Translations under genes and position numbers: made by a program
Source: Betaproteobacteria bacterium
Lineage (GTDB): Bacteria > Pseudomonadota > Gammaproteobacteria > Burkholderiales > SG8-41
Assembly (NCBI GenBank): GCA_025363575.1
Contig: JANYDM010000147.1
Location: forward strand, 1 to 6,592
Direction: 5' to 3'
DNA: 6,592 nucleotides
Shown here: positions 3,076 through 6,592 of the stretch, one piece after another
Position numbering within the stretch: the stretch's first letter is position 1
How the letters are laid out: the number at the start of each line of letters is the position of its first letter
Notes under the pieces: generated by a model
Told to the model about the DNA's origin: nothing
The model's database searches: none
Seen by the model: the letters and a program-made list of their open reading frames with translations, nothing else

Positions 3076-4281
3076 ATGCAACTGCCGCTCGAAGACATCA
3101 AGGTACTCGACCTCACTCACGCCCTCGCTGGCCCGTTCTGCTCGACCATGCTCGCCGACTTTGGCGCGCAGCTGATCAAGATAGAGCCGCCGGGCGAGGG
3201 CGATCTCGCGCGCGGCTGGGGCGTGCCGATCGCGGGCGGCGAGTCATCGTACTTCGTGAGCCTGCACCGCAACAAGCGCGGCATCGTGCTCGATATGAAG
3301 AAGCCCGAGGGCAGGGAGCTTTTCTTCAAGCTCGTCGAGAAAAGCGATGTGGTGATAGAAAACTACCGCGTCGGCGCGCTGAAGCGGCTGGGCATCGACT
3401 ACGCCGAGGCGAAGAAGCGCAACGCCGGCATCATCTATTGCTCAATCTCCGGTTTCGGCCAGGACGGCCCGTATCGCGACCGCGCTGCGCTCGATCTCAT
3501 CCTGCAGTCCGAAAGCGGCATGGTCAGCGTGACGGGCGAGCAGGGCAGCAGCGGCACGCGCGCCGGCGTCTCGATCGCCGATATGACGGCGGGCCTGTAT
3601 GCCGCGTACGCCGTGATGCTGGCGTTGCGCACGAAGGAGAAAACCGGCGAGGGACAGGAGATCGACATCTCGATGCTCGAAGGCCAGCTCGCGCTGCTGA
3701 GCACGATGATCAGCGCCTATTGCGCGGACGGCAAAGTTCCGCGGCCCACCGGCAACACCTACGCCGCGCTGGTGCCGTATCAGACTTTCCACACGAAGTC
3801 GCGCGACCTCGCGATCGCGATCGCCGGCGACAAGCTATGGAAGAAATTGTGCCCGACGCTCGGCCGGCCGGATCTCACCGATGACGCGCGATTCAGCAAG
3901 GCGCTCGAGCGCAACAAGAACCGCACGGTGCTGCTGCCCATGCTGCAGGAAATATTCCTGACCAGGCCTTACGAAGAATGGGAACCGCTGCTGCTCGCCA
4001 ACGATATTCCAGTCGGCGCCATCAACACCCTCGCGCAAGTCGTCGAGCATCCGCAGGTCAAGGCGCGCCAGGCGCTGGTCGAAGTGGAGCATCCGCGCGC
4101 GGGCAAGGTGCGGGTCGTGCGCTCGCCGGTGCGCATGTCGAAAGCGCCGTTTGCCGTGCGTTCGCCGGCGCCCATGCTTGGCCAGCATACGGTCGAGGTG
4201 CTGCGCGACGTGCTGGGTATAAACGCTGCCGATATCGCAGCGCTTGAAAAGGCCGGCGTGCTGGGAACTAAAACGCGCTGA
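3076..4281 (+). CDS. CaiB/BaiF family (family III) CoA-transferase
   Basis: Complete at 401 residues, the usual length for the family. Family III enzymes move CoA between carboxylic acids through an aspartyl-CoA intermediate in the cytoplasm. Visible hallmarks are KVLDLTHALAGPFCSTMLADFGA near the N terminus (interlocked-dimer CoA-binding part), IKIEPPGEGD (34-43), HRNKRGIVLDMKKPEG (64-79), SISGFGQDGPY (123-133) and VSIADMTAG (165-173). Asp169 in the last motif aligns with the catalytic aspartate of formyl-CoA transferase. The C-terminal part carries NDIPVGAINTLAQV and HPQVKAR (325-331), also typical. The start at 3076 is the only one that keeps the full N-terminal motif; its ribosome site is weak (AGG, 3067-3069). 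The TAXI gene ends 54 nt upstream, and the minus-strand selenoprotein-like gene converges with its 3' end. Donor and acceptor acids are unknown; a racemase role is less likely but not excluded. Confidence 0.93.
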   Translation: MQLPLEDIKVLDLTHALAGPFCSTMLADFGAQLIKIEPPGEGDLARGWGVPIAGGESSYFVSLHRNKRGIVLDMKKPEGRELFFKLVEKSDVVIENYRVGALKRLGIDYAEAKKRNAGIIYCSISGFGQDGPYRDRAALDLILQSESGMVSVTGEQGSSGTRAGVSIADMTAGLYAAYAVMLALRTKEKTGEGQEIDISMLEGQLALLSTMISAYCADGKVPRPTGNTYAALVPYQTFHTKSRDLAIAIAGDKLWKKLCPTLGRPDLTDDARFSKALERNKNRTVLLPMLQEIFLTRPYEEWEPLLLANDIPVGAINTLAQVVEHPQVKARQALVEVEHPRAGKVRVVRSPVRMSKAPFAVRSPAPMLGQHTVEVLRDVLGINAADIAALEKAGVLGTKTR

Positions 4282-4287
4282 CACGCA

Positions 4288-4317
4288 CGTTCGTACTTCT
4301 AACCATCAGCACGAACG
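4288..4317. repeat. inverted repeat between convergent genes
   Basis: CGTTCGT (4288-4294) and ACGAACG (4311-4317) are perfect complements separated by 16 nt, in the 43-nt space between the convergent stop codons at 4281 and 4325. It has no T tract, so it could be a weak bidirectional terminator or chance. Confidence 0.3.
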
Positions 4318-4324
4318 AGGGTGA

Positions 4325-5101
4325 TTATTCCCAGAGCCGCTCGGGCAGCGGCAGCCCTTTCAGGTCTTCCGGCGTGAGCGGCTTGTCCGGCTTGACGTCC
4401 ATCCGTTCAAGCGTTGCGACCAGTTGCCGGCAATGCTGTGCCGAGTGCCAGGTCACGCGCTCGAACACCTTGTGCGCGACGGTGTCGCCGTAATACGTCT
4501 TGAGCACGGGCGTCAGCTTGCGGTCTTCGGCCGACAATCCCGCCCACCATGTTTCGAAGCGTTTCCATACGCTCGCGCCGTAGCGCGCGACATCGTCGCC
4601 TGTCTGCATGGAATCCGGCGGCTCATTGTCGGCGATCTTGACCGAATATTCGGCGCCGTCCCACGTTTCGAGAAACGATTCGCCGATGCGGAACACGTGA
4701 TAGCACAGCGTCCTGATCAGCCGTTCGCGGTGCGGGATGACGCGCTCGCGAAAGCGGTCGGCGGGAAATTGCCGCGCGTAGCGCTGCGCCGCCTCGAACA
4801 CCATGCCGTATTTCTTGTAGAGCTGCTCGGGCGAGAGGCGGTCGGCGCCGGGCATCGGCAGGCCCGCCAGTTTGGCGAACGGGTCGAGCATCTGGCCCAT
4901 CGCGTACTGGTCGCCCTTGGCGAGCACGGGCACTTTGCGCAGCCCGAATTTATTGAGCAGGAGTTCGCGGCCGCCGGCGTCGTTAAGGACGTCGACCACC
5001 ACCATGTCTACACCGTTTTTCGAAAGAAACTCTTTCGTTCGGAGGCAGCTACTTCATCCCGGCTGGGTGAAGTACATGTACTTGTCGGGGGACATTTCCA
5101 T
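4325..5101 (-). CDS. predicted selenoprotein: glutaredoxin-DinB-like fusion with a UxxC active site (in-frame TGA = Sec16)
   Basis: The full frame from ATG 5101 to TAA 4327-4325 is 258 residues if the single in-frame TGA (5056-5054) is read as selenocysteine. Residues 7-81 are a glutaredoxin/thioredoxin fold: YMYFTQPG, then U16-S-S-C19, then LRTKEFLSKNGVDM, a VVVDVL strand (34-39) and the cis-proline motif KVPV (56-59). Residues about 91-235 resemble the DinB/YfiT four-helix metal-binding bundle, with His135 in CYHVFRIGESF and an HxxxH pair (His219, His223) in WHSAQHCRQL as the likely metal triad. Expected role: cytoplasmic thiol/selenol redox chemistry, possibly thiol-dependent transfer or detoxification; the substrate is unknown. 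AAGGAG at 5114-5109 lies 7 nt before ATG 5101. The alternative start at 5005 (Met33) has no such site and would delete the active site. A weak -10-like TAAACT lies at 5133-5128. Except for the TGA the frame is intact, which argues against decay. The alternative is a Cys TGC to TGA mutation or a read error. Confidence 0.82.
5013..5042 (-). promoter_or_regulatory. candidate bacterial SECIS element
   Basis: On the minus strand, CGAAAGA (5037-5031), loop GTT (5030-5028) and TCTTTCG (5027-5021) form a perfect 7-bp hairpin inside the coding sequence. Its first base is the 17th after the TGA, and the apical loop begins 23 nt after the TGA. A lower 3-bp stem, CCG (5042-5040) with CGG (5015-5013), is separated from it by an AA/AAAAA internal loop. 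Bacterial SECIS elements lie directly downstream of the UGA, with a short apical loop containing G among its first bases; the E. coli fdhF loop carries the GU contacted by SelB. Here the loop starts with GU. The bulged U of fdhF is not evident, but consensus is loose among bacteria. Confidence 0.68.
5054..5056 (-). other. in-frame TGA, predicted selenocysteine codon
   Basis: Codon 16 of the glutaredoxin-DinB frame is TGA, three codons before TGC (Cys19). In ordinary glutaredoxins this place holds the nucleophilic Cys of CxxC, and Sec replaces that Cys in known redox selenoproteins. Coding sequence with glutaredoxin character reads straight through on both sides. Trp is encoded by TGG throughout the neighbouring genes, and the CaiB gene ends at a TGA, so a recoded genetic code is unlikely. 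Confidence 0.8.
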
Positions 5102-5108
5102 AGTCGAT

Positions 5109-5114
5109 CTCCTT
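5109..5114 (-). promoter_or_regulatory. ribosome binding site upstream of the TGA-containing frame
   Basis: AAGGAG on the minus strand, 7 nt before ATG 5101. It is the only strong Shine-Dalgarno sequence near this gene and it places translation initiation 45 nt before the TGA, so ribosomes must meet the TGA to make the rest of the protein. Confidence 0.85.
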
Positions 5115-5169
5115 GTTGCGAGCCCGAAGTTTAGCGCGATTTGAACGGTCGCGCAGGCGGTCCGTCCCG

Positions 5170-5214
5170 CTCACTCCGCGAGGGTCTGCGCGGTTAGTCC
5201 AACTCACTCCGCGA
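5170..5214. repeat. 12-nt direct repeat
   Basis: CTCACTCCGCGA occurs at 5170-5181 and again at 5203-5214, 33 nt apart. The second copy spans the stop codon of the Bug-like remnant (its last Ala-Glu codons plus TGA on the minus strand). The first copy may be a short local duplication from decay of that gene. Confidence 0.5.
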
Positions 5215-5335
5215 CGATGTTGCGATCGGCGACGATTTTCTTCCACTGCGCGAGCTCGTCCTTCATGCGCACGGTAAACGCCGCCGGCGCCATCGCGAGC
5301 GGCAGCATGCCGTCGGGGTCGAACAGCGTCTTTTC
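5204..5335 (-). pseudogene. C-terminal remnant resembling a Bug/TctC-type solute-binding protein
   Basis: The minus frame ending at TGA 5206-5204 encodes about 43 residues with the look of a Bug (tripartite tricarboxylate receptor) C terminus: a P-AAF turn, then MKDELAQWKKIVADRNI and a final VAE. In the family this end is typically a helix with a Trp near its middle followed by a short strand. Upstream the frame stays open to beyond 5500 but stops looking like protein of this family, and no second Bug domain is found in the other frames. No start or ribosome site supports a small gene; an ATG at 5371 would give 55 residues. It is therefore probably a leftover from a deletion or rearrangement. 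It accounts for about a third of the spacer at 5115-5514; the rest of that spacer holds no recognised gene. Family assignment rests on pattern memory and is uncertain. Confidence 0.45.
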
Positions 5336-5448
5336 CGTGCACATGACCGAAGGCGGCGTGTAAGCCACCATGGCCGCACAACGCAAATACAAGGACAGCC
5401 ACGGGCCGCTGCTGGAAATCGAAATACCCGACTGACCGCCGGCGGCGC

Positions 5449-5468
5449 CCGGCGCCAATCCGCGCCGG
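5449..5468. repeat. GC-rich inverted repeat upstream of the second CoA-transferase
   Basis: CCGGCGC (5449-5455) and GCGCCGG (5462-5468) form a perfect 7-bp stem with a 6-nt loop, CAATCC. There is no T tract on either side. It sits just before the possible -10 box at 5481 and could be an operator or a mark of the junction with the decayed gene; chance is possible in GC-rich DNA. Confidence 0.35.
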
Positions 5469-5480
5469 GTCAAAGAGCGG

Positions 5481-5486
5481 TAAGAT
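5481..5486 (+). promoter_or_regulatory. candidate -10 box of the second CoA-transferase gene
   Basis: TAAGAT matches four of six bases of TATAAT and lies 28 nt before the ATG at 5515, a suitable distance for a short leader. No clear -35 is visible at 16-18 nt upstream. Weak evidence. Confidence 0.25.
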
Positions 5487-5514
5487 TCGTCCTTTGCTCG
5501 TTGAGAGAATCTGC

Positions 5515-6592
5515 ATGGACCAGCCCGCCGCCGCACCCGCTACGCAAACCCTGCCGCTTTCCCGCATCACCGTGCTCGACCTGACACTCGCGCGCGCTGG
5601 CCCCACCTGCGTGCGCCATCTCGCCGACTGGGGCGCAACCATCATCCGCATAGAACCGGCTGAGACTACCGGCGAAGACCTCTCCGGCAAGCGCGAAGGC
5701 TTCGACTTTCAGAACCTGCATCGCAACAAGAAGATGGTGCAGCTGAATCTGAAATCACCCGAGGGCCACGCGGCCTTCATGAAGCTCGTCGAAAAAGCCG
5801 ACGTGATCATCGAGAACATGCGCGCCGAAGTGAAGCACCGGCTCAAGGTGTCGTACGACGACGTGAAGACAATCAATCCGCGCATCGTCTACGGCAGCAT
5901 CAGCGGCTTCGGCCAGAGCGGCCCCTACGGCAAGCGCGCCGGCGTCGATCAGATCGTGCAGGGCATGGGCGGCCTGATGTCGATCACCGGCCTGCCGGGC
6001 CAGGGCCCCGTACGCGTCGGCATCGCCATTGCCGATCTGACGGCCGGCAATCTGCTCGCGTTCGGAGTGATGACCGCTCTATACGAACGCGAGACGACAG
6101 GCGTCGGCCGCTGGGTGCACACGAGCCTGCTCGAAGCACAGGTGTTCATGCTCGACTTCCAGGCTTCGCGCTATTTGATGTCGGGCGAAGTCGCGGGACA
6201 GGCCGGCAACGACCACCCGACCGGCGTGCCGACGGGCGTGTTTCCCGCGAGCGACGGGCTGTTCAATATCGCGGCGGCATCGGCGCGCGTGTTCGCGCGC
6301 TGCTGCGACGCACTCGGCAAGCCCGAATGGAAAGACCGCGAAGACTGGAACACCGGGGCCAAGCGCGGCAAGGCGCGCAAGGAGATCAACAGCGCGATCG
6401 CCGAAATCACCAAGCACAAGCCGACGCAGCACTGGGTCGAGTTGTTCGAGGCGAACGGCGTGCCGTGCGGCCCGATCAATACCATCGACAAGGTATTTGC
6501 CGATCCGCAAGTGAAGCATCTGGGCATTGCCTCGCCGGTGAAGAGCGAAAGGCTGGGCAACATCAATCTCGTCGGCTCGCCGCTCAATCTCA
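5515..6592 (+). CDS. CaiB/BaiF family (family III) CoA-transferase, C terminus cut by the window edge
   Basis: 359 codons are visible and the frame is open at the right edge; family members are about 380-410 residues, so little is missing. It shows the family plan: ITVLDLTLARAGPTCVRHL (18-36), IIRIEPAETTGEDL (43-56), HRNKKMVQLNLKSPEG (69-84), SISGFGQSGPYGKRAGVDQI (128-147) and IAIADLTAGN (170-179). Asp174 is the predicted catalytic aspartate that forms the acyl-CoA anhydride intermediate. The loop GNDHPTGVPTGVF (231-243) and NGVPCGPINTIDKVFADPQV (314-333) fit the large and linker domains. GAGAG (5503-5507) lies 7 nt before the ATG. It is clearly a distant paralogue of the CoA-transferase at 3076-4281, not a recent duplicate, so the two probably differ in substrate. 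Substrates are unknown. Confidence 0.92.
   Translation, partial: MDQPAAAPATQTLPLSRITVLDLTLARAGPTCVRHLADWGATIIRIEPAETTGEDLSGKREGFDFQNLHRNKKMVQLNLKSPEGHAAFMKLVEKADVIIENMRAEVKHRLKVSYDDVKTINPRIVYGSISGFGQSGPYGKRAGVDQIVQGMGGLMSITGLPGQGPVRVGIAIADLTAGNLLAFGVMTALYERETTGVGRWVHTSLLEAQVFMLDFQASRYLMSGEVAGQAGNDHPTGVPTGVFPASDGLFNIAAASARVFARCCDALGKPEWKDREDWNTGAKRGKARKEINSAIAEITKHKPTQHWVELFEANGVPCGPINTIDKVFADPQVKHLGIASPVKSERLGNINLVGSPLNL

Follow-up and report, generated by a model that had tools for sequence, protein, structure and literature searches.

A predicted selenoprotein joining a glutaredoxin domain to a DinB domain, with a TGA active-site codon and a SECIS-like hairpin

The minus strand of the window, by which we mean the whole 6,592-nucleotide stretch of DNA analysed here, carries a gene that runs from an ATG at 5101-5099 to a TAA at 4327-4325 and contains a single in-frame TGA. 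We propose that this TGA encodes selenocysteine (Sec) in a protein that combines a glutaredoxin domain with a DinB domain. The gene and its parts are the following:

4325 to 5101, minus strand: predicted selenoprotein gene with glutaredoxin and DinB domains, 258 codons plus TAA, with TGA as codon 16
5109 to 5114, minus strand: Shine-Dalgarno-like AAGGAG, 7 nt upstream of the ATG, read off the sequence
5054 to 5056, minus strand: in-frame TGA, the predicted Sec codon (residue 16, forming UxxC with Cys19); TGA in 16 of the 16 loci that cover it
5021 to 5037, minus strand: SECIS-like hairpin with a 7-bp stem (CGAAAGA / TCTTTCG) and a GTT triloop at 5030-5028, from cross-gene tests and an exact pattern search
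4907 to 5077, minus strand: glutaredoxin domain, residues 9-65 (Pfam PF00462; the structure model matches 3zit and 7c10)
4421 to 4837, minus strand: DinB-type four-helix domain, residues 89-227 (Pfam DinB_2 PF12867)
4697 to 4699, minus strand: codon of His135, a predicted metal ligand, His in 106 of 106 aligned proteins
4445 to 4447, minus strand: codon of His219, a predicted metal ligand (HxxxH), His in 106 of 106
4433 to 4435, minus strand: codon of His223, a predicted metal ligand (HxxxH), His in 106 of 106
5003 to 5005, minus strand: ATG of Met33, the start in the standard annotation (226 aa); 17 of 18 close and 0 of 31 other TGA genes have an ATG here

When the TGA is read as one residue, the frame gives 258 residues with zero further stops, and the TGA takes the place of the first residue of a CxxC motif (TQPG-U-SSC-LRTKEFL). 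The product in the standard annotation begins at Met33 and lacks the active site; we infer that this start is an annotation artefact. A sequence-only reading of this DNA had placed AAGGAG at 5114-5109 ahead of a glutaredoxin frame with TGA at 5056-5054, on the first redox Cys position, and had given 242 otherwise stop-free codons after the TGA and a standard call of 226 aa from 5005 without an active site. The sequence itself, its translation and the Pfam PF00462 match bear out all of these points; the product size of "28 kDa" needs correction, the computed mass being 29.7 kDa for the Cys form. Directly upstream of the gene, the minus strand of the window holds an open frame (5204-5350) whose translation closes with what looks like the C-terminal part of a TctC-type solute receptor. 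One related locus (L003) has a TctC gene upstream of the Sec gene, and the frame in the window is possibly a decayed gene.

Both domains were recognized by Pfam, Glutaredoxin PF00462 clearly (E 4.4e-12, 46.5 bits vs a cut-off of 22.9) and DinB_2 PF12867 by a narrow margin (25.8 bits vs 24.8), and the structure model, which is a confident one (pLDDT 93.3, pTM 0.89), contains a glutaredoxin fold and a DinB fold. The closest solved relative by sequence profile is 7c10 (E 2e-11), titled 'Dithiol cGrx1', which we take to be the Cys form of a natural Sec glutaredoxin of Clostridium oremlandii. Pro58 is present in all 106 proteins that we aligned, and V57-P58, presumably the cis-Pro motif of glutaredoxins, is invariant in alignment A2. 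The His triad (135, 219, 223) is kept in 106/106, in Sec and Cys forms alike; the model and these conserved residues together give a DinB four-helix fold bearing a His triad. Between the TGA and Met33, Lys23, Glu24, Phe25 and Leu26 are kept in at least 105 of the 106 proteins. Since a motif around residues 15-21 was required for a protein to enter this alignment, the conservation of Gly15, Ser18, Cys19 and Leu20 is partly due to selection. A comparison of the Sec and Cys forms among the 106 for Sec-specific residues brought out only Pro161, and we therefore claim no partner residue for Sec. The C-terminal tail, GLPxPxxxW (residues 249-257, window 4331-4357), is nearly invariant, with Leu250, Pro251 and Pro253 in 106/106.

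A protein search with the window gene gave 1198 matches, and the best 120 of them are all 223-228 aa long and start near the equivalent of Met33, after the TGA; among 207 fetched proteins, the only Cys in the close clade is that of the window's own read-through copy. Because the entries in the protein collection begin after the TGA, we examined the DNA of homologues instead. One scan of a species-genome collection yielded 17 loci, of which one (L016) ends before codon 16; the other 16 all have TGA at this codon, Cys19 and no other in-frame stop. In a sample of 300 genomes from the order of one relative (G004), 28 contain a homologue. Of these, 22 carry one or more TGA copies; the remaining 6 possess only uninterrupted copies, whose active-site codon is TGC or TGT. 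The 22 genomes carry 37 TGA copies, each with TGA as its single stop. Among 398 genomes from the phylum, matches were found only in G004 itself and in G447 (TGA, 35% identity), and TGA paralogues reach down to about 30% identity. The sequence-only reading had argued that the TGA is no random nonsense mutation and had proposed to look among homologues for Cys and for recurring TGA, with TGC in close relatives counting against Sec. The 16/16 loci and the 37 copies uphold the argument; Cys homologues exist (58 Cys rows in our tree), the TGA recurs across many genomes, and TGC was looked for in close relatives and did not appear.

A very divergent TGA copy, L101 (G155:C122:4546-5271; 30% identity), reads U-F-S-C and has the same hairpin string; it falls outside our motif expression and is counted only in the 300-genome scan and the pattern search. 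Its genome, G155, carries four TGA copies in total. A fragment lacking the N-terminus (G306:C51) was dropped before counting. Some database records are odd in themselves. P0123 (310 aa) starts with the family's post-TGA stretch and continues as a transporter-type sequence (PF03176), probably from a chimeric contig, and the records of L001 and L017 are titled Bordetella parapertussis with isolate names that resemble environmental MAGs; this taxon label is probably wrong.

From 106 proteins, 48 with Sec and 58 with Cys and all passing the motif requirement around residues 15-21, we built a tree by a quick method, with the trait column masked and the incomplete L015 left out. In this tree, which has several long branches and whose details are unsure, 47 of the 48 Sec rows form one clade (SH-aLRT 94) and L088 lies among Cys rows, giving at least two changes. 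Since the TGA genes form nearly one clade, the copies do not represent many independent gains, and the Sec form appears to be an old subfamily that has stayed stable rather than the outcome of many recent gains. L088, from genome G447, has a different post-TGA stretch and stands outside the main Sec clade, which may mean that it gained Sec independently or uses another hairpin.

A SECIS-like hairpin with a G in its apical loop lies just downstream of the TGA, spanning nt 17-33 after it with a GUU loop at nt 24-26. Rfam gave no SECIS or other credible match, either for the whole window at the gathering threshold or for 4950-5110 at a relaxed threshold, and the folding of the window hairpin is unremarkable against dinucleotide shuffles (z -0.5 to -0.7). 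Because these z-scores are weak, we used synonymous-recoding and cross-gene tests. In the 18 distinct close TGA genes of the synonymous-site test (window included), codons +6 to +11 (ACG AAA GAG TTT CTT TCG) are identical in 18/18, a pairwise codon identity of 1.00 vs 0.26-0.51 expected, and the best of 187 nine-codon windows starts at +4 (0.47 vs a mean of 0.11, sd 0.09). A perfect stem of at least 7 bp is present in 18/18 close and 31/31 other TGA genes (in L088 via a different stem); the longest stem is 7-8 bp in all 49 TGA genes vs 4-6 bp in 6 Cys genes, and 7 bp is reached by 2.0% of synonymous recodings of the close genes and 3.4% of those of the other TGA genes. The hairpin string, with at most one A-to-G change, is kept in 30 of the 31 other TGA genes (34.7-54.5% protein identity), the exception being L088 (G447), and is absent at the DNA level from the 6 Cys genes. 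The stem is near-invariant, its only variation being an A-U to G-U change seen in 3 genes, and because it hardly varies we dropped the covariation argument.

The exact pattern TGA-N6-TGY-N7-CGAARGAGTTTCTTTCG, searched with the reversed pattern as control, gave 44 matches in 28 of 399 genomes, and the control gave 0. Within the 300 order genomes it has 37 matches, which hit all 22 TGA genomes and none of the 278 others. In all 17 locus genomes the SelD gene likewise has an in-frame TGA with a hairpin behind it; the triloop of that hairpin occupies nt 21-23 (GUU in 16, GGU in 1). With a predicted SECIS conserved nearly letter for letter, its recognition by SelB becomes testable.

Sec machinery was counted in the genomes of relatives, namely the 17 genomes behind the loci and the 300-genome order sample. 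In the locus genomes, tRNA-Sec scores over the cut-off in 17/17, selD is present in 17/17, each with its own TGA, selA in 16/17 (none in G016) and selB over the cut-off in 15/17; the other two, G004 and G016, have selB fragments on tRNA-Sec or selA contigs. The four sel genes that the sequence-only reading had suggested looking for (selA, selB, tRNA-Sec and selD) are therefore found in the genomes of close relatives. In the 300 genomes, where the tRNA-Sec search used stricter filters and lost some weak matches, tRNA-Sec occurs in 21 of 22 TGA genomes vs 67 of 278 others (Fisher p = 1.7e-11); these others divide into 3 of 6 among the Cys-only genomes and 64 of 272 where no homologue exists. Since half of the Cys-only genomes (3/6) have tRNA-Sec, possession of Sec machinery does not force the TGA form. 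One assembly, G068, carries a TGA copy, yet neither tRNA-Sec (under the strict filters) nor selB was found in it, and its SelD is without TGA; here the contig may be a contaminant, the assembly incomplete or the copy dead. G447, the genome of L088, has a SelD without TGA and has selB. Duplicated machinery genes were also seen: two selB genes in G195, and two tRNA-Sec genes each in G116 and G280.

Of the 22 TGA genomes, 17 have a TGA copy that shares a contig with tRNA-Sec and is no more than 20 kb away from it; in 13 the distance is no more than 8 kb. Two more genomes have a TGA copy beside another sel gene, G004 (selA and a selB fragment) and G195 (selB); where a Cys-only genome encodes tRNA-Sec (3 genomes), that gene and the Cys gene lie on different contigs. 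G013 carries, on one strand, mnmA, a Sec glutaredoxin-DinB paralogue, one gene, selA, selB, one gene and tRNA-Sec (L092 1783-9932). The position of this paralogue, taken together with the 17/22 linkage, hints at involvement in the metabolism of selenium or of thio-tRNA. In G004, G007, G008, G013 and G155, which have both kinds of copy, the window-type gene is not the sel-linked one. A search for a fixed gene neighbourhood across the 17 loci, which include short ones, brought up class III CoA-transferase homologues as the only recurring neighbours (7/17), with 24-29% identity to that of the window; these neighbours suggest no substrate. In L004, an 862-aa protein with two tandem class III CoA-transferase domains (3375-5960) ends about 40 bases upstream of the Sec gene on the same strand.

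Several other readings of the TGA have to be set against decoding as Sec. Cys homologues of the same architecture exist, as would be expected if nonsense mutation or faulty sequencing had put the TGA into a conventional Cys glutaredoxin, making the gene a young pseudogene or a misread contig. We rejected this, as its probability becomes practically negligible once the same TGA is seen in 16/16 covering loci and in paralogues down to about 30% identity, with no close relative found to have TGC, and with the rest of the frame intact and the synonymous sites after the TGA frozen. The TGA may also be a true stop, closing a 15-residue leader ahead of a separate 226-aa DinB protein that starts at Met33, with the hairpin serving as an attenuator or re-initiation device. 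This is the standard annotation in 120/120 of the best 120 of 1198 matches, and it suits the ATG at codon 33 in 17/18 close genes. However, 31/31 other TGA genes have no ATG there and yet keep both TGA and hairpin, and four residues between the TGA and Met33 (Lys23, Glu24, Phe25 and Leu26) are conserved in at least 105 of the 106 aligned proteins; the 6 Cys genes lack the hairpin, and tRNA-Sec tracks the TGA. We regard the true stop as highly improbable.

Any read-through would likewise yield the full-length protein, so the codon could in principle be read as another amino acid, by an alternative code or by near-cognate read-through as Trp or Cys. TGA, however, is a normal stop in these organisms, because, among 48 complete distinct TGA genes of the family itself, 14 also have TGA as their terminator; moreover, the TGA form goes with tRNA-Sec (21/22 vs 67/278), and the hairpin is placed like that of SelD. 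Decoding as another amino acid is, in our judgement, extremely improbable. The Sec interpretation of the sequence-only reading is supported, and from the comparative sequence evidence we hold with great confidence that the TGA would be decoded as Sec. We also consider it highly probable that the explanation holds as a whole, namely that Sec is inserted by way of the predicted SECIS hairpin into a two-domain glutaredoxin-DinB protein.

For the predicted selenoprotein we propose a possible mechanism. SelB would bind the predicted hairpin and bring Sec-tRNA to codon 16. In the protein, the substrate reduced by Sec16, with Cys19 as the resolving thiol, would be a glutathione mixed disulfide or some other oxidised compound of sulfur or selenium. 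The DinB domain, whose predicted metal site consists of His135, His219 and His223, would bind or activate glutathione or a glutathione conjugate; S-transfer and reduction would then be coupled within one chain. The enzyme is probably a glutathione-linked redox/S-transferase. We put forward the coupled catalytic role itself only tentatively, on the strength of fold and conserved residues. The protein may instead be a selenoprotein whose DinB part is a mere scaffold, acting as an ordinary glutaredoxin or peroxidase with no coupled S-transfer; many selenoproteins of thioredoxin-like fold are expected, according to a 2026 review, to have redox functions (PMC13188914), and we give this possibility serious weight, if somewhat short of even chances. 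Against a mere scaffold, the His triad in 106/106 proteins suggests an active metal site, and all eight bacillithiol transferases of the DinB superfamily from B. subtilis, which share three conserved His, are reported to lose activity with EDTA (PMC5815605). An extension of the coupled mechanism is that Sec16 and the DinB metal site form a selenol-dependent thiol (or selenium) transferase and that the sel-linked paralogues handle glutathione-bound selenium for Sec synthesis. We think this unlikely; if it were true, the Sec machinery would contribute to the production of its own selenium carrier, and a whole selenoenzyme family would have been hidden by annotation.

Sec glutaredoxins with UxxC are established (PMC9312934, PMC13188914), and ten are mentioned for a Sargasso Sea set (PMC1088965). 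These known Sec glutaredoxins (PF00462) likewise have UxxC at the same place in the glutaredoxin fold; in the tables consulted they are listed as plain glutaredoxins, whereas the window protein has DinB fused behind. Some of the Sargasso Sea proteins might belong to the glutaredoxin-DinB family. The 2026 table of prokaryotic selenoproteins (PMC13188914) has a plain 'Glutaredoxin PF00462' entry and no glutaredoxin-DinB entry, and 'DinB' occurs 0 times in the main text. In NCBIfam, no model scored over its cut-off for the window protein, the glutaredoxin models included. Both results agree with the statement of the sequence-only reading that it could not place a Sec glutaredoxin-DinB protein among described families. 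A full-text literature search, with preprints and most subscription journals outside its coverage, returned nothing with the whole words 'DinB' and 'selenoprotein', and none of the papers with 'DinB' and 'selenocysteine' was, by title and opening of the abstract, on such a protein.

The UXX-star selenoproteins (NF041212, NF041114, NF041211 and NF047338) and the HUGP/GUXX-star fusion (NF045501) are likewise small (seleno)protein domains of glutaredoxin type, and one of these occurs as a fusion. They differ in that no DinB partner is named for them, and the window protein scores below the cut-offs (27.0 bits vs 66 for NF041212, 11.2 vs 325 for NF045501). From the other side, structural matches to the DinB / S-transferase-like superfamily (BstA-H, mycothiol-dependent maleylpyruvate isomerase, EgtB/OvsA) cover essentially the DinB part, at 8-15% identity. 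We know of no member of this superfamily with a Sec glutaredoxin domain. A further comparison is with the Cys-form glutaredoxin-DinB proteins (e.g. P0126, P0131 and P0144, found among the best 120 of 379 matches of a second protein search), which have the same two Pfam domains, a QPGCSSCLRTKEF active site and the same His triad; they differ in having Cys for the TGA and, in the 6 Cys genes examined as DNA, in lacking the hairpin. Natural Sec and Cys forms of one enzyme are on offer. SelD of the same genomes is an unrelated enzyme; its in-frame TGA and triloop hairpin at nearly the same distance make it an internal positive control.

According to a 2006 survey (PMC1794560), Alpha- and Betaproteobacteria and Pseudomonadales that decode Sec have a single selenoprotein, the formate dehydrogenase FdhA. 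We found FdhA with TGA in only 8 of the 17 locus genomes, whose assemblies may be incomplete; glutaredoxin-DinB is in 17/17 by selection, with its TGA seen in 16. The closest members of the glutaredoxin-DinB family (the best 120 of 1198 matches) stand in the protein collection without their active site. We read the family as a new two-domain selenoprotein family, in which the decoding is known and the domains are known, whereas neither their combination nor the family was found described; it adds to the bacterial selenoproteome a two-domain family with TGA copies in 22 of 300 genomes of G004's order.
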